NCBI GenBank assembly: GCA_011033025.1
Contig: WFMF01000494.1
Span: 52,406 to 116,405 of the forward strand
From: Beroe forskalii
Taxonomy: Eukaryota > Ctenophora > Nuda > Beroida > Beroidae
Direction: 5' to 3'
Length of the DNA stretch: 64,000 nt
The notes beneath the pieces are model-generated. The model saw only the letters and a program-made list of their open reading frames with translations, did not search any database and was not told where the DNA came from. The position numbers and the translations under genes are program-made. Numbering within the stretch: the stretch's first letter is position 1; the number at the start of each line of letters is the position of its first letter. This document shows, in pieces, positions 52,036 through 63,467 of the stretch.

Positions 52036-53990
52036 GTGTTAATATATTAACTTGGGTGTTAATATTAACGAAAATTTTAATTTTTCCGACCACCATGAAA
52101 AACTCTTGACTAAAGCTAGTCAACAACTAGGAATATCAAAGCGTACTTGCTACTTTGCAAGTGATGTACAGCGTAGAAGAATTTTATACCTTTCTTTGGT
52201 TAGAAGTCAGTTTGAGCACTGTTCGCCTGTTTGGGGGCCAAGAGCTCCCACTGCCATCAGAAAATTCGAAAACTTCCAGAAAAAATGTGTTAAATGGATT
52301 CTCAAGGTGACCAGTCCTACTGTAATGAGGTTTATATAAGAAAATGTTTGGATCTGAAAATTTTACCTCTTGAATACAGATTTACTTGTGCAGAAATGAC
52401 TCTGTTTCATAAAATATTTTATAACTTGACTCCTCTTTCTATGCCAGGTTATCTCGTACTTAACAGTAATACCTACAGACAATAGCAAACTATGATCTAG
52501 GCATCTAGATAATCTTGCACTCATTTCTAACCTAACACCTGGATCAAATACCTTATTACAGGAAATATCGCCTTCAGAAAAATGAGCCTACATGTCATTA
52601 AGCTACATGAAATTAAGCCCTTTTTTGAGGCCCTAGGGCTTAATTACATGTACGCCTAATTTAATGCATTCTTAAATACATGCAGCCAAATTATCATTTT
52701 GGAGATAGAAAATTAGAAAGTCTTTGAAATTATGAAATAGAAATTCCAGCCTTGTATTCAAATAATTAAGACTTTGTATTTTACAAATTTAAGAATTTTA
52801 GGCTTGATCTTCTATTTGAAAATTTGATTGAATGAATAATTCCCCACTGAAAACAATTAATTTAATCGGTGAATTTTCAGAGAAATAATTACTATGACAA
52901 AATAACCTATAGAATAAGTCATCAAAGCATCATGAGAGTCTTATCACTTCATCAGGTCTATCAAATTGTTGATAGAATATATTTCCACAAAACTCAGTAC
53001 TTATTGGTTATCAGGAAACATTGCATGCTATGTAAACTCAGCTATGAAGATTTGAAGAAATAGGCAATGGAGAATCATGAGTGAATTTGAATTCGAATAA
53101 AATGTTTACAACACAATGACAATGAATATATTTTCTCAGGTTTATATTATGAATGAAGCTTCTATGTTGTGCTGAGGGAAAACACTCAGACAATCATAAA
53201 GACTGTTAACGAGGTTGCCCACCACTAAAGAAATATCTATACTATATTAAAACATATTCCTGAAAAGAATGATGAAAATAAATAATGTACTCGGAACAGT
53301 ACATTCTGGTAAGCTCAACTTTCTCCAGAATATGTCTCTTGCATTTTTGATAGTCTTGGCAATACCAGTGGCTTTCCATCCGGCATCAATTTATGCAATA
53401 CTGTATCAATACTGAATGAAAAAATCGATGTTTTCGAACTTATTTGCTTGAAAAATAGTCCTCATGAAATTAAGAATACATGTCATTAAGGTGCATGAAA
53501 TTAAGCCCTTTTTGACACCTTAGGGCTTAATTATATGTAAACTTAATTTCCTGTAATAAGGTAGTTGCAATAACCTAAGCAAATCATTCTTTTATCGAGG
53601 GCATCGCACTTGGAATACATTGCCTCTTGAAATCCGAGATACACCGGGGCAATCTGAATTCAAAACTAAACTTAAAGATTATCTCAAGTCACTTGCCAGG
53701 ACAGAGATTGTTGCTTGGCAAGATGACTGGTCACAGCTATCCCATGATGGTGGTTAAATCTTCATTACCAAAATTTTGTAATTTTGAGAGGGGGGCCATA
53801 TGATTATTAATCTTGATATATGTTGATTGTTTTAAACTCTCTTGGTCCAAAGTATGTTGGCACAGCTTGCTGTGCGTATCTATGTTTTGGAAACCCTTAA
53901 ACTATTATGAAATTGAAAATTTGTTTATTTTCATATCTTATTATAATTTTAAAGTTTTGAATAAAAAAATCATATTGAGTTGAGTGATAA
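52036..53990 (+). mobile_element. LINE fragment (ORF2 C-terminus) interrupted by a DNA element
   Basis: The plus strand reads the C-terminal region of a LINE ORF2: LGVNINENFNF, LTKASQQLGISKRTCYF and LVRSQFEHCSPVWGP, then a frameshift near 52310 and LKILPLEYRFTC. It continues after the inserted element at 53562 with SFFYRGHRTWNTLPLEIRD and LKDYLKSLARTEI, closing with TAA at about 53757. The final 230 bp, ending near AATAAAAAAATC at 53965, are probably its 3' UTR. It is related to, but clearly distinct from, the LINE at 37.9-39.3 kb (same blocks, divergent residues). No reverse-transcriptase catalytic core remains. Confidence 0.78.
52551..53561. mobile_element. 1,011-bp DNA transposon inserted in the LINE, TA target
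   Basis: The ends are perfect 16-bp inverted repeats (CCTTATTACAGGAAAT at 52551; complement ending 53561), flanked by TA on both sides (52549-52550, 53562-53563). Both subterminal zones carry palindromes built from CATGAAATTAAGCCC...GGGCTTAATTA. The interior is AT-rich without a recognisable transposase, so this is a Tc1/mariner-like MITE. Removing it with one TA rejoins the LINE frame exactly. Confidence 0.82.
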
Positions 53991-57540: not shown

Positions 57541-58336
57541 CTTAAAGCCCACATGGGTGTGTGTTTGCTAAACACGTATACCCCTGTTATGGTAGGTCTC
57601 CCATATAAACAGGAGCCTTCATTATCTATGACAATGACGTCATTCAGAAAAATGTAATTAAGCGCACCTAGCGCTTAAAGGACTAGGGTTAGGGTCAGGA
57701 TTGTCTGACGTCGTCAGAGGGGGTCAGGCAACGCCTGACAAGGTCAGGATTAGGGTCAGGATTTGTTAGGGTTAGGGTTAGGATTAAGATTAGGGTTTTG
57801 GTTAGGGCTATGGTTAGGTTAAGGATACAGAAAAATTGACGTCTAGATCTGTGACGTCACTCAGAGCCATTTATATGGGAGAGATACCCCTGTTATCGTC
57901 GCGTATGGAAGCGCGCGGCGCGTACACGTCGTAGGATGTTACCCTACCCTCGCGCGCGGCGCAACGTTCCACATTTGGACGTCACTTTGCATCCAGTCAG
58001 AAGAAATAGACGGGGCAACGTCCGTCGACGTACACGCACCTATGCTGGCTTAGGAAAGCAAAACGCAAACAATGATATACGTGTTTATTGTCAGACGTTG
58101 TCTGACCCCTACGCCTAGCCTTCGGCGCGGGCGGGCGCGCGCGTGTCCGCCTTGCTAAACACGTATACTCCTGTTATCGTTGCGCTTCCTCAGAAGCGCG
58201 CCGCGTACACACACCTATGCGGGTTGCTAAACACGTATATCCCTGTTTGCGTTGCGGTGTCCCGTAGGTCGAAGCGCCGCGCGCGTACACACGAATATGC
58301 GGGACTGCGGGAGCTTAGGAACTATGCGGGCTTAGG
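57541..58336. repeat. GC-rich tandem repeat array, left part
   Basis: Units start with GCTAAACACGTATACTCCTG, then TTATCGTTGCG, a palindromic AAGCGCGCCGCG block, and TACACACACCTATGCGGG. Copies are visible from 57567, 58154 and 58231. A Helitron-free hAT-like MITE interrupts it (57591-57888) and an LTR element terminates it at 58337. It continues on the far side of the LTR element. Related GC-rich words occur at 29.5-30.1 kb. Confidence 0.65.
57591..57888. mobile_element. hAT-like MITE with telomere-like core, copy 1 (298 bp)
   Basis: Terminal inverted repeats GGTAGGTCTCCCATATAAA and the complement of GGTATCTCTCCCATATAAA are bordered by a perfect 8-bp duplication, CCTGTTAT (57583-57590, 57889-57896), the hAT-type length. 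The core holds CTAGCGCTTAAAG and a degenerate TTAGGG/TTAGGGTCAGG array (57684-57830). This copy additionally carries about 45 bp of the GTCTGACGTCGTCAGA / GTCAGGCAACGCCTGAC palindromes, which are missing from copy 2. Confidence 0.82.
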
Positions 58337-59006
58337 TGTTAGGGTACCGTTATCGGTCAATTATCACTTTCAACTTCAGTCAACTTTAGCATAACACCGT
58401 ATTAAGATTCTATGATCCTTGGCAACAAGCAACCTCTATAATTGTATAATTGCCGTGCACTCTAATTCCCTTTGAAGCTTTGATAGTTTGATTATATCTC
58501 GGCTTGCATTAATATAAACCCTTGTTGGACGAGAGACGACAGACTTCACCATTCAAGCATAGTATCCATAAGTAATTAGAGTAGGATTTGTAACTACACT
58601 TAACTTCATACGGAAGAATAGTTGCCTTATGGATGGGTCGTAACTCTCATGAAATCATTGTAATGATTAGCAAGACTTGACTTGGATATATTGCTAGGAC
58701 AATATCTTTATAATGCCGTACCGTAAATTGAGTTAAAGTATGGGATTAATTTAGCAGTTAGCGTTCCTTACGGTACGACTTCGAGACGCTGCTTGCTCCG
58801 GTCTGTAAATATTCTACCAGCGAAGGCTACGCTGATTGGAGGATAGGTATTAAAGATTGACCAATAAGAGAGAGGCGCGCGCGCCATTGAGAAACTGTAA
58901 GGATTACGAAGATGTCATTGTAATATCTTCACTTCGACTTATTCCAATTCAAAGAAGTTATAAAACTTGTCTCTCTTGGAACTATACTACGACGGAAACC
59001 ATAACA
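58337..59006 (+). repeat. 5' LTR (670 bp)
   Basis: Direct copy of 62056-62748. It differs from the 3' LTR by substitutions and small indels; for example, the 3' copy has an extra ATGCTCTT near 62490 and a longer segment near 62525 and 62600. TATA-like elements are ATATAAAC (~58510) and TATAAAAC (~58960). Confidence 0.9.
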
Positions 59007-59008
59007 TT

Positions 59009-59078
59009 TGGCTCCCCGTCTGGGAATCGAACCCAGGTCGCCCGCGTGACAGGCGGGAATACTAACCACTATACTAAC
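59009..59078 (-). promoter_or_regulatory. Primer-binding site extended to a ~70-nt antisense copy of tRNA-Asp(GTC)
   Basis: Two bases after the LTR end, TGGCTCCCCGTCTGGGAATC begins the complement of a tRNA 3' end including CCA. Complementarity does not stop after 18 nt. The minus strand carries the T-arm (CTGGGTTCGATTCCCAG), the anticodon arm with GTC (CGCCTGTCACGCG) and the D-arm (TTAGTATAGTGGTTAG). It ends at about tRNA nucleotide 6, so the 5' acceptor strand is absent. The A and B box promoter sequences are intact on the minus strand. Confidence 0.87.
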
Positions 59079-59181
59079 TTCCCAAATTTTTCAAATTTGC
59101 CGAGTATAATTTCATATTATACTATAATCTTTCTAAATTTATAACACAGTTGACGTCATTTTACTAATTATCCTTTTTTCA

Positions 59182-60969
59182 GTGGTCAACAAGAAATCAA
59201 AAAAGAAGAGTTCCCCCAAATCGAGTGCAGAGGCTTCCACTTCATCTTGTCAAGCGGCACTACAGGAGTTAGAGATGCAGGTAGATCTTGCTCCTTCAAC
59301 GTCCACAGTCCCTCCAACAAATGAAAATAAGTTTGACACTTATGCTCGTGCTGTCAGTGGCACTAAGAGCACTAAATCTCCCCAGATTGAAGTCGTGGAG
59401 CCCATGGCTGCCGGAGAGAATCCTGCAGTAGTACCCGAGGTAGATCCTCAGAACGACATACCACAAGAAGACAACATACCACAAGAGCTTCTTGTGACTG
59501 CAGACGTGGACACTTCTACGGGTGCAATTGAGCAAGTGATTTCAATCACTTCCTCGATTGAGGAGTTGTCCCTCCTGAACATCGTACCAGATACGATCCC
59601 TCCCCATCCCCTCCAACAGATCCTTGAAATCACCACTAAATACCAACCTAAGGACCTCATTGACCCCTCCCTGGCAACAATGGAAAACCTATCTTCCTGC
59701 AAAGACTCTGTCGACTCCCTGGTCACACATTTATTCAACATGAATAAATTGCTAGTTAGATTAAAGGGTATTCTAGGATTTTCCCTATCTTTACCAACTG
59801 AAGAGAGTAGTGTAGAACACTACCAAAGAGAGGCCAGAGCACTGACCAAACAGGATGAAGTTGAGCTTCACTTTCGGAGTAACGATGTTCGTTACAACCA
59901 AAGTGGATCTAAGATACGAGCTACTTCTTCTTCACTTGCAGTTCCTGAGCCGGACACTAAGAAGAAAAAGCTGGCGTCTAATTCCACTGACTCGGACAGT
60001 GATCTATCCACTGCATCCTCTTCATCGGGATCCTCATCGACAGGACACAATCAAGAGCATCGTCTTTTGGACTCCAGAAGACAAATTCTGTTAGATAGCT
60101 ACCGCACGACAAGAACGGTTACAATAGAACCGAGCTCAACTCCTCGCACAAACAATGGAACTCACAGCCATTCAGAAAGAAGCAGGTCTTCCCATGAGAG
60201 GAGACAGGAAGAGTTCAGAACCACCGGTCGTCGATCCGACCGACGCCCGAACGTGCACAGAACAGAGACGTCCAGAGAACGGATGAATCGCATGCTGCAG
60301 GGTCAGCAAAGTGTTGACCGAAATCAACAACAAGCACGAGCAACTGCTATCAAAAACATAACGGATCAACTCAACACCCTTCCTCAACTTTCGAAATCGT
60401 CACCCGTCATTGTATTCAATACATTCAATATGGAGTCTTTCATGAATCCAAACCTGACCAATGACTGGAAAGATCCACGGTACACCGTAACAGACCGCAA
60501 GGTTGCACTTTGCGTAATTCCACGTAAATTCCAGCAGGACCTCTATGGAGAACTCCAAGTGCAACTTAACAGAAGCCTCGATTGTGCGGCAGGGACTTTA
60601 AAAGACTGCGCAACGATTCTGAAGAACCTCAGACTCACTGCCAGTCTGATGATGACACATTCAATCCACGATGTCGTGGATTGGATTGGACAACGGTTCC
60701 ACACGTTGTCATTACCTTACAAACACCAGGTAATAAGGGCGGATGTAACAAAACAACTCCGCGCCAAACTTCGGTGCTTTACTAACTCTACCATGGAGTT
60801 AGAAACATTGATAAACCAGATGATCGGTATCAAGAACGATCTTACCTACTGGAAACCTGATCTCTTGCACGAGATCAAGGTAATGATGGGGACCATCATT
60901 AATAACTTCCGCATAACTTCCGCACGGACCATCATTCATAACTTCCGCATAACTTCCGCACGGAGCTAA
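59182..60969 (+). CDS. Gag-like protein of the LTR retrotransposon
   Basis: A 595-codon frame, the only one in the element. The first half is low-complexity, Ser/Thr/Pro- and Lys-rich, with acidic Ser tracts near residues 265-285 and an Arg-rich zone (RSSHERRQEEFRTTGRRSDR) near 335-365. The last 200 residues look globular and helical (VALCVIPRKFQQDLYGELQV), as expected of a capsid-type region; that is inference. There is no CCHC knuckle, protease or polymerase. No ATG opens the frame: it is open from 59137, the reading given begins at GTG, a splice-acceptor-like CCTTTTTTCAG precedes it, and the first in-frame ATG is at about 59275. The last 24 codons are a tandem duplication (NNFRITSART). What else it could be: a host-derived gene captured by the element. 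Confidence 0.65.
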   Translation: MVNKKSKKKSSPKSSAEASTSSCQAALQELEMQVDLAPSTSTVPPTNENKFDTYARAVSGTKSTKSPQIEVVEPMAAGENPAVVPEVDPQNDIPQEDNIPQELLVTADVDTSTGAIEQVISITSSIEELSLLNIVPDTIPPHPLQQILEITTKYQPKDLIDPSLATMENLSSCKDSVDSLVTHLFNMNKLLVRLKGILGFSLSLPTEESSVEHYQREARALTKQDEVELHFRSNDVRYNQSGSKIRATSSSLAVPEPDTKKKKLASNSTDSDSDLSTASSSSGSSSTGHNQEHRLLDSRRQILLDSYRTTRTVTIEPSSTPRTNNGTHSHSERSRSSHERRQEEFRTTGRRSDRRPNVHRTETSRERMNRMLQGQQSVDRNQQQARATAIKNITDQLNTLPQLSKSSPVIVFNTFNMESFMNPNLTNDWKDPRYTVTDRKVALCVIPRKFQQDLYGELQVQLNRSLDCAAGTLKDCATILKNLRLTASLMMTHSIHDVVDWIGQRFHTLSLPYKHQVIRADVTKQLRAKLRCFTNSTMELETLINQMIGIKNDLTYWKPDLLHEIKVMMGTIINNFRITSARTIIHNFRITSARS

Positions 60970-60974
60970 ACCGG

Positions 60975-62044
60975 ACGTAAATGACATCATCAACGATACA
61001 TGATATTATGGACTTAAATGGACTGAATAAATTCGTGATATGAACTTGAGATATAGTAATTATACATTTATAGCTCTTTGGATTCTTGATTTAGTTACAT
61101 ATATGAGAGTATAGCAGAAATTTCATGAACTGCGATAAACTGGCTATCTTCATGCGTATAATTCATGTGATTTTGAATATTTGTAGTTAAATATTTTATG
61201 AACAAGTGCACAGATTTTCGTGGATAAAAATCATCACAATTTTTTTGCCTAAGTATCAAATTTCTTATAGTTCTTTGAAATTGAATTTTGATTCAAAATT
61301 ATTATTTCGATTTTTACACTGTAGACAGTAATCCACTGTGTTACTGTCATGTCAATTAAGATCTTTCAGCAATTTTGGATATTGCTAGTAATTATATTGA
61401 TGTTTAGCAATTATTGCACTGCAGATCTTCTTCGTAATTATATTGGGAATCATAACCAATGGAAATTTTTGCAGTTTAACCTTCGGAATAAAACCGATAT
61501 TTCCACATAATCACATGGTGTATGTAATTACCTAGCCAATGCTATAGGTATCATCCTTATCTTATTTTAGTGGCCGAATGAGTCACTATATAGCTATATT
61601 TACGACTATAACTCTTAATCCTTACAATATCTATTTAGTAATAGTATAATCTTTAATTATATACGTATATCTGAGTGTCTAATATTACCATGCTGAATTA
61701 TGTGTATATTGCGAAATATAGACGGCAATTCTATCGTAAAATTAAGATTAGAATTATTGATATTTCTGGACGTTATAATTATATATTGTATATGATCTGT
61801 AAGAGAATCGTAACCCGAGCATTCCTATAATTAATACTTATTCCTATATTATATGTGCCTTTTCATTTTCGCTCTTGGACGAAAAGTGATTTCAATCCTT
61901 TCAGTTTCATATGAATTACTATTCAATTTTAAATTCAATTGACGACTTCTATGCGTCTAATACTAGTAATAGACGTTCTATTATCGACCCAAGTCTATCA
62001 TTGTCAAATTAATTAAATAATTTTTCAAATTATTTAATTTTTGT
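60975..62044. other. AT-rich non-coding part of the LTR element
   Basis: About 1.07 kb where pol would normally be found. No frame of interest and no reverse-transcriptase motifs on either strand. Confidence 0.7.
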
Positions 62045-62053
62045 GGAGGGAGA
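62045..62053 (+). promoter_or_regulatory. Polypurine tract
   Basis: GGAGGGAGA lies two bases before the 3' LTR, the expected plus-strand primer site. Confidence 0.75.
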
Positions 62054-62055
62054 TG

Positions 62056-62748
62056 TGTTAGGGTACCGTTATCGGTCAATTATCACTTTCAACTTCAGTC
62101 AACTTCAGCCTAACACCGTATTAAGATTCTATGATCCTTGGCAACAAGCAACCTCTATAATTGTATAATTGCCGTGCACTCTAATTCCCTTTGAAGCTTT
62201 GATAGTTTGATTATATCTCGGCTTGCATTAATATAAACCCTTGTTGGACGAGAGACGAGAGACTTCACCATTCAAGCCTAGTATCCATAAGTAATTAGAG
62301 TAGGATTTGTAACTACACTTAACTTCATACGGAAGAATAGTTGCCTTATGGATGGGTCGTAACTCTCATGATAAATCATTGTAATGATTAGCAAGACTTG
62401 ACTTGGATATTTTGCTAGGACAATATCTTTATAATGCCGTACCGTAAATTGAGTTAAAGTATGGGATTAATTTAGCAGTTAGCGTTCCTTATGCTCTTAC
62501 GGTACGACTTCGAGACGCTGGGTGCTCCAGCCACGTCTGTAAATATTTTACCAGCGTAAGCTACGCTGATTAGAGAATAGGTATTAAGGATTGACCAATC
62601 AGAGACTGAGAAAGGCACGCGCGCGGCCATTGAGAAACTGTAAGGGTTACGAAGATTTATTGTAATATCTTTACTTCGACTTATTCCAATTCTAAGAAGT
62701 TATAAAACTTGTCTCTCTTGGAACTATACTACGACGGAAACCATAACA
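62056..62748 (+). repeat. 3' LTR (693 bp)
   Basis: Direct copy of 58337-59006 with small indels; it ends ACCATAACA followed by the TAGG target duplication. Confidence 0.9.
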
Positions 62749-62922
62749 TAGGAAGCGTCCGCCGAAGGCGTGTTTAGTAAACGGGAACTGGGAAGCGAGC
62801 CGCGGCCGCGCAACGTTCCCCCGAACCAGTTGCCAAACACGTATAACCCTGTTTGCGCGCTTCCCTGGGGAAGCGCGCCGCGCGAGCCAAACTGGGATAT
62901 ATATTGTTTTTTAGCAATATGG
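62749..62922. repeat. GC-rich tandem repeat array, right part
   Basis: Continuation of the array at 57541-58336 after the LTR element: CAAACACGTATAACCCTGTT, then TGCGCGCTTCCC and a palindromic GGGGAAGCGCGCCGCG. Confidence 0.6.
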
Positions 62923-63159
62923 GGTATGTCTCCCATATAAACGGCTCTGAGTGACGTCACAGATCTAAACGTCAATTTTTCTGTATCCTAAACCTAACTA
63001 TTGCCCTAACCAAAATCCTTATCCTAAACCTAACAAATCCTGACCCTAACCAAAACCCTAACCTTACTGCTTAAAGCGCTAGATGCGCTTAATTATATTT
63101 TTCTGAGTGACGTCATTGTCATAGATAATGAAGGCTCCCGTTTATATGGGAGACTGACC
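62923..63159. mobile_element. hAT-like MITE with telomere-like core, copy 2 (237 bp)
   Basis: Inverted relative to copy 1. Terminal repeats GGTATGTCTCCCATATAAA and the complement of GGTCAGTCTCCCATATAAA are bordered by a perfect 8-bp duplication, CAATATGG (62915-62922 and 63160-63167). The core contains CCTAA / CCCTAACC telomere-like words. The different target duplication shows an independent insertion. Confidence 0.84.
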
Positions 63160-63467
63160 CAATATGGGAGATACCAGGGTATTCAACAAGGAGGACACCA
63201 AATTCATCTTTCTGAATGAATAGAATTATATACAATAATACGTATACATTACGAATTAAACAAGCATCAACAAATATTATTACAAATTGCATGGAACCAC
63301 CGTAACAAACCAAAAAATTTATCGGACGACAAAATGTCAATCATGAACATTGAAATTGAATTTTAAGATTGCGACATAATTTTACTATGAATGATGATAA
63401 AAACATTGCCGCAACGAATTCACAAACTACAACAATGTCATCTACAATCTCTAGTTCATTGTCAGCA

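Follow-up and report, generated by a model that had tools for sequence, protein, structure and literature searches.

The window, a 64,000-nt stretch of the Beroe forskalii genome (contig WFMF01000494.1, C574 in our searches; positions 52,406–116,405, forward strand), contains an LTR retrotransposon on its plus strand. The 5′ LTR (58337–59006), which runs from TG to CA, is repeated as the 3′ LTR at 62056–62748, the two differing by 3.1% substitutions and six gaps. The target site duplication TAGG lies immediately before the first LTR (58333–58336) and again directly after the second (62749–62752). Two bases, TT, separate the 5′ LTR from the primer-binding site (PBS), and a purine-rich tract (PPT), read from the sequence at 62043–62055, precedes the 3′ LTR. 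With both LTRs, the target duplication, the PBS and the PPT all present, the locus qualifies as an LTR retrotransposon. Inverted repeats of 114–120 nt, 86–91% complementary, are found on either side of it (57576–57890 and 62921–63174), so the LTR element seems to be nested in a foldback-type element.

The single long ORF encodes 595 amino acids (59182–60969, with the first ATG inside it at 59275) and is closed by a 36-bp tandem duplication (60890–60961). A Pfam search at the locus detected no pol domains in this ORF, and the element therefore fails as an autonomous Ty3/gypsy retrotransposon, for which a gag-pol with reverse transcriptase (RT), RNase H and integrase is required. All Pfam hits to the ORF were below the cut-off, including Arc_MA (E = 0.15), and an AlphaFold model of its C-terminal part was of low confidence (mean pLDDT 48.8); the protein may be called gag-like in position only. 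Nor was any RT match found on contig C574 among the matches listed for the protein of an autonomous Ty3/gypsy element on contig C24 (L013). The LTR end of the window element is 86% identical over 73 nt to that of C24, with which it also shares a 12-nt PBS core, as expected of a Ty3/gypsy satellite. Most likely, this is a complete pol-less LTR element that uses a Ty3/gypsy RT in trans.

The PBS itself is unusually long. As the original prediction had claimed, about 70 nt beginning two bases past the 5′ LTR are antisense to tRNA-Asp(GTC): positions 59009–59078 are identical at 70/70 positions to the antisense of the host tRNA, from nt 76 (the CCA end) to nt 6, an exact match far beyond anything chance could account for. 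Its first 12 nt (59009–59020) are the core shared with short-PBS elements, and the template thus matches the tRNA well beyond the PBS, as in primer over-extension. Past nt 6 the window reads TTCCC where nt 5–1 of the tRNA would give GAGGA; with this half replaced, the acceptor stem is unpaired and the tRNA fold is broken in the window copy. The stretch is consequently not a foldable tRNA gene with a paired acceptor stem, and ARAGORN (bacterial code) called 0 tRNA genes in the window. The sequence 3′ of the PBS (59079–59320) matches only itself in the genome. On the minus strand the stretch holds A and B boxes pointing back toward the LTR, another feature that had been predicted. TACTAAC, the consensus of splice branch sites, occurs twice in the antisense tRNA-Asp (59060–59078), and a pyrimidine tract followed by AG stands ahead of the ORF (59172–59182).

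A genome search with the 70-nt stretch listed 31 matches. Fourteen of these, at other loci and exact over positions 3–70 of the stretch, resemble tRNA-Asp genes; in the nine whose flanks were read, AA replaces TG before the match, leaving no CCA, and GAGGA (nt 5–1) follows it. The proposed comparison with genomic tRNA-Asp genes thus separates these nine from the window copy, which includes CCA. The CCA, which the original prediction had used as evidence, is indeed present, but TGG alone proves little, since an ordinary PBS has TGG as well; the informative edge is the 5′ end of the tRNA.

To survey PBS length, one assembly (216 Mb, 1134 contigs) was searched with patterns that required TT before TGG; this assembly was also the one used in all other genome searches, which scored capped lists of candidates. 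TT followed by the first 18 PBS bases (≤1 mismatch) was found at 16 sites, and the reversed-pattern control gave 0. Measured without gaps at a score of +1/–2, the tRNA match extends over 75, 75, 74, 74, 72, 70, 69, 69, 69 and 65 nt at ten of these (0–8 mismatches), and over 38, 35, 35, 29, 27 and 18 nt at the remaining six. In three of the shorter ones (L041, L052 and L053) the remainder of the tRNA is still traceable in diverged or gapped form, and the other three reach about 27, 35 and 38 nt. TT followed by the first 12 PBS bases, matched exactly, was found at 20 sites (reversed-pattern control, 0); seven match the tRNA over 12–14 nt, and 13, all included among the 16, extend over at least 27 nt. 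No site of the 20 falls at 15–26 nt under the +1/–2 score, a gap between length classes that depends on the scoring, since the uninterrupted tRNA run is only 20 nt in L047 (19 nt in L042 and 15 nt in L053). An additional, more diverged long site (L034, on C398) came from the 31-match search. The tRNA copy has its edge at nt 1–2 in L020, L022, L023, L025 and L031. A scan of viral contigs for the long PBS gave no match.

The long PBS is therefore shared among copies, 10 of the 16 sites with an 18-nt PBS reaching 65–75 nt, as the comparison of sister copies suggested with the original prediction was meant to reveal; an accident private to the window copy was discarded, since other sites have the same extension. 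Two other points of that prediction can be set against the survey. It took the ordinary PBS to be about 18 nt long, and the partner elements here have 12–14 nt. It also named, among results that would speak against it, other copies with an ordinary PBS and a target duplication belonging to the stretch itself: seven ordinary-PBS sites do exist, but at least four of them belong to autonomous partners, and by eye the 70-nt stretch has no target duplication of its own in the window.

The short-PBS element on C24 encodes RVT_1, RNase H and integrase domains, as well as a gag whose Retrotrans_gag match is below threshold and to which the window ORF is dissimilar. When the C24 protein was used as a query for RT (best 96 of 237 candidates scored), the four best matches were C24 itself, C802, C196 and C436, each following a short-PBS site of the same strand at a distance of 2.7–4.7 kb; the fifth, on C175, has no surveyed PBS site nearby. 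Among the matches listed, none is near the three other short-PBS sites (on C242, which has two, and C759) or within 10 kb of any of the 16 long-PBS sites. RT thus lies near 4/7 short and 0/16 long sites (Fisher p = 0.004), with an RVT_1 hit under threshold about 7–8 kb downstream of the PBS in L025. The short-PBS sites would then represent autonomous Ty3/gypsy elements, although RT was found near only four of the seven, and the long-PBS sites their pol-less partners. The two classes resemble each other in their LTR ends (L021/L060, 95% identity; L021/L055, 92%; L024/L057, 90% over 86 nt; L023/L058, 75%), and the tRNA match is 69 nt in L021 vs 14 nt in L060. Among the long-PBS elements, the window ORF matches L046, L026, L051, L031, L019, L020 and L023 (21–64% amino acid identity, E = 4e-89 to 4e-5), and at E = 0.01 tblastn found no match to L021, L024, L025, L033/L052, L034 or L047.

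The joins between the tRNA copy and the element interior are most informative in four elements, L019, L020, L022 and L032 (family A), whose LTR ends are 95–99% identical and whose joins all differ. L022 has 75 nt of tRNA joined through AGGA. L020 also has 75 nt, followed by one additional A without microhomology, and 166 nt of the L022 interior are missing. In L019, 72 nt of tRNA are joined through ACGA and about 530 nt are missing, and L032 has 38 nt of tRNA. In three of these elements the copy thus terminates exactly at or close to the tRNA 5′ end, whereas the point of joining on the element side shifts, as would be expected of a run-off copy landing at chance sites. Elsewhere, L021 exits the tRNA at CCACTATACTA, a string that is also present within the LTR of the short-PBS element L055, and L046, the sister of the window element, has only 27 nt, joined to mid-ORF sequence. 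The copy in the window ends at nt 6 beside sequence that matches only itself, so that its junction has no parent for comparison.

We consider it probable that the PBS grew from the family's 12 nt to a near-complete copy of the primer tRNA-Asp because RT ran on along its primer. During plus-strand strong-stop synthesis, RT would pass its usual stop and continue along the tRNA to which the minus strand is still joined. An over-long plus strand made in this way would land deeper inside the element, sometimes via a few matching bases, and such a landing would combine an internal deletion with a long PBS. Once present, a long PBS would match the run-off product, allowing plus-strand transfer after either an early or a late stop of RT, and parasitic elements may compete better for primer tRNA by virtue of the longer complement. 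Copying of the mature primer tRNA by RT, as the source of the extra 58 nt, is well supported by the differing breakpoints in family A and by A58 errors in copia, an independent case.

This second case emerged from a control search with 16 other tRNAs (best 40 of 87 candidates scored), a set without Ala, Cys, Ile, elongator Met and Tyr. Of 68 matches listed, two begin at the TGG of the query, and both are to initiator tRNA-Met (iMet), on C99 and C257; a Thr match on C414 that covers TGG was taken as chance, as it runs into neighbouring Val sequence. The iMet copy at C99:290059 runs the full 75 positions to nt 1 and matches at 74. Its element is young, with LTRs identical at 223/223 positions and the target duplication ATATT, and the tRNA copy is followed by a T run and then by copia pol sequence (RVT_2, sub-threshold, E = 0.0014). 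This pol part is 98% identical to the internal region of an adjacent full-length copy, revealing an internal deletion. Sister copies have a PBS of 9 nt or a mismatched one. In L068 (96% identity over 235 nt), TGGTATCAG is followed by a frame read as copia gag. Among seven further copia-family LTR ends, an iMet-like PBS comes after L073 (there the 9-nt TGGTAGCAG) and L076, and TGGTGGCAC after L072; no PBS follows in L071, L074 and L075, and L077 gave no LTR-end match. Both copia-type copies enter a T run at tRNA nt 1 (L067, after 1705; L064, minus strand, after the iMet copy), which perhaps reflects a jump to a poly(A) tail.

The C99 copy departs from the host iMet gene only at position 19, where G replaces T; we take this to be the column of A58, the m1A58 position. 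A search with this copy gave ten places, four of them bearing TGG. The C257 copy has C at the A58 column and three other changes; it is 92% identical to C99 over 118 nt including the tRNA copy and 83% over 52 nt further upstream, and from this likeness we judged it to be a probable LTR case. The C379 copy has A at this column and is otherwise identical over 63 nt, and the C647 copy retains the normal T, with a single G inserted. The A58 column is therefore altered in 3/4 CCA-bearing copies, each time to a different base, two of these three being in LTR elements, whereas it is T in 6/6 iMet genes checked (five and one diverged). Were the changes placed at random, three would coincide on this column with a probability of about 1e-5. 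Since m1A causes both RT arrest and misincorporation (PMC4787781), such errors are what read-through of m1A58 would leave in retrocopies. The C379 copy (L080, 301–363) lies between inverted-repeat arms, as if tRNA-primed cDNA had snapped back, and the 5′-truncated C647 copy (L081, 297–363), flanked by a GTTTATTA duplication, is likely a tRNA retropseudogene; the LTR cases are hence only C99 and C257.

The tRNA-Asp elements differ in this respect. A58 is unchanged in all 16 copies that retain the position (L052 lacks that stretch), and with 0/16 errors passage through a methylated A58 is not demonstrated in the Asp elements. The claim in the original prediction that RT read through the modified base, and that the extra copy was then fixed, is accordingly supported by the family A breakpoints, the copia A58 errors and the sharing of the extension among elements, but passage of a modified base in the Asp element itself is not. 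The intact A58 may mean that tRNA-Asp is unmethylated there, which is a guess, or that the extension is now inherited. Human tRNA-Asp carries m1A9 (PMC7293042). At ungapped column 67, ten of 17 elements have the normal T, while seven end earlier or are gapped or diverged there.

Inheritance is the main competitor of run-on copying. A single ancient capture, kept by selection for pairing with tRNA-Asp or for the anti-tRNA fold and never recopied by RT, is distinctly possible, though we would not put it at an even chance. An ORF common to several long-PBS elements, down to 21–25% amino acid identity, agrees with it. So do L024 and L052, whose ORFs start alike (MTEN.../MTEQ..., E about 1e-7) a few bases from the tRNA piece, though their LTR ends do not match each other. 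L026 and L051, both on C157, share several derived departures from the tRNA, which implies either duplication of the locus or transmission of the extension from parent to copy in at least one round; a variant tRNA-Asp gene was rejected as the origin of these changes, as a search matched only L026, L051 and C298. Taken together, the shared changes, the ORF starts and the intact A58 point to inheritance or to an unmethylated tRNA-Asp, and near-identity to the tRNA in elements with unalignable LTRs argues for either rewriting or strong selection.

Folding bears on the same question. In three of the five anticodon-stem pairs both sides have changed and pairing is kept, in two lineages (L026, L051 and L034). 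In a stem-pair test on 10 of the 17 long sites, aligned as nine distinct rows with L031 left out, three of the five measures had values that 0/500 shuffles attained. The two-sided pair count was reached by 19/500 shuffles and the pair-type count by 350/500. Compensation is missing in L025 and in T-stem changes, and the two-sided change in L031 pairs only on the minus strand (G-U). These changes are a hint that folding may matter. What inheritance alone does not yield is the shifted junctions of family A near the tRNA end, which run-on copying would produce.

Alternatively, local homology could have let RT jump from the element onto a free tRNA, as happens in the hairpin-induced tRNA-mediated recombination (HITME) of HIV, instead of running along the attached primer. 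We regard this as unlikely. It has a precedent in HIV involving 63 nt of tRNA-Asp, as described in PMC12220202, and a possible switch site exists in U5: of 21 elements scanned, six (the window element, L046, L013, L021, L060 and L055) have a box of 8–12 nt complementary to the D arm 27–30 nt upstream of the PBS, with 0–11 of 200 shuffles reaching the same length. In the window this box is ACTATACTA, 28 nt before the PBS (58981–58989). L058 has 11 nt complementary to the D arm about 29 nt after the start of its short PBS. Judged by complementarity, the boxes are possible second primer contacts. However, the copies begin at CCA and continue the core PBS without a shift of register, which an attached primer predicts, and the copia case has the tRNA type indicated by the PBS of its sisters.

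It is very unlikely that the stretch is kept for another role, as an antisense Pol III promoter, as in-frame coding sequence or for splice branch sites. The minus-strand A and B boxes, the two TACTAAC motifs with a 3′ splice-site-like stretch ahead of the ORF, and a frame that stays open between the LTR and the far side of the stretch (L020, L022, L023 and L024) would fit such roles, but L019 and L032 are open in different frames and the window copy cannot fold as a tRNA. Insertion of a tRNA-Asp gene or tRNA-derived SINE into the PBS, or gene conversion by one, is hardly credible despite the perfect identity to genomic tRNA-Asp genes and the presence of two related tRNA-SINE-like repeats (L027 and L028, with a tRNA-like head close to tRNA-Asp), because the same placement recurs at many sites after different LTRs with TGG kept, the bases past the tRNA end differ from the tRNA-gene flanks read, the window stretch shows no target duplication of its own, and the copia copy matches a mature tRNA to nt 1 with a single error at A58.

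Run-on copying invites a bolder reading, which we offer tentatively and consider doubtful as a whole: that this lineage makes the whole primer tRNA heritable and in each cycle rewrites its long PBS from the live tRNA as RT runs to the tRNA 5′ end, that it uses the full-length complement to take tRNA-Asp away from its hosts among the autonomous gypsy elements, and that the copia errors record methylation of iMet at A58. If true, those errors would be a fossil trace of RNA modification in DNA, and the A58 error pattern would offer a route to past tRNA methylation from genome sequence alone.

Standard schemes of reverse transcription treat the m1A58 stop and a short PBS as essential. Non-autonomous gag-bearing LTR elements (TR-GAG, LARD) have LTRs, a PBS, a PPT and one ORF without pol. 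The window element has the same layout, although its ORF has no recognisable gag domain, and we know of no long PBS in these groups. In the open-licence literature, which lacks most subscription papers, we found no description of elements characterised by a full-length-tRNA PBS. The integrated copies described here tie primer read-through to internally deleted, pol-less elements.

According to one study, plus-strand synthesis stops at m1A58 and an unmodified tRNA gives a full-length product (PMC13191261). The primer over-extension of lentiviruses and spumaviruses treated there resembles the present case in that the template beside the PBS matches the tRNA further, tolerating A58 read-through; their products end near position 55 and the full-length product is no active template, whereas here the match runs to 65–75 nt, up to the whole tRNA (PMC13191261). 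In Ty3 the copied part of the tRNA is 12 nt long (PMC5371799), a length that the short PBS here shares, and the long ones fit an RT that ran on. According to that source, the PBS of new Ty3 copies does not derive from the tRNA-copied plus strand, and a changed primer tRNA was not recovered in new Ty1 or Ty3 copies, whereas tRNA sequence is present in the integrated copies here (PMC5371799). Gypsy-type and copia-type copies that bear the full primer contrast with the Ty1/Ty3 view of an uninherited primer. As here, RT has been described as copying much or all of a tRNA into viral DNA, both in murine leukaemia virus, in circular DNA (Colicelli and Goff 1986), and in the HITME recombinants of HIV (PMC12220202). 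Those cases are laboratory events, whereas the present ones are in the germline, in gypsy-type and copia-type elements and at many gypsy-type sites. Relative to both over-extension sequences and laboratory insertions, what is new here is the length of the copy, its presence in the germline and its link to deletion derivatives.
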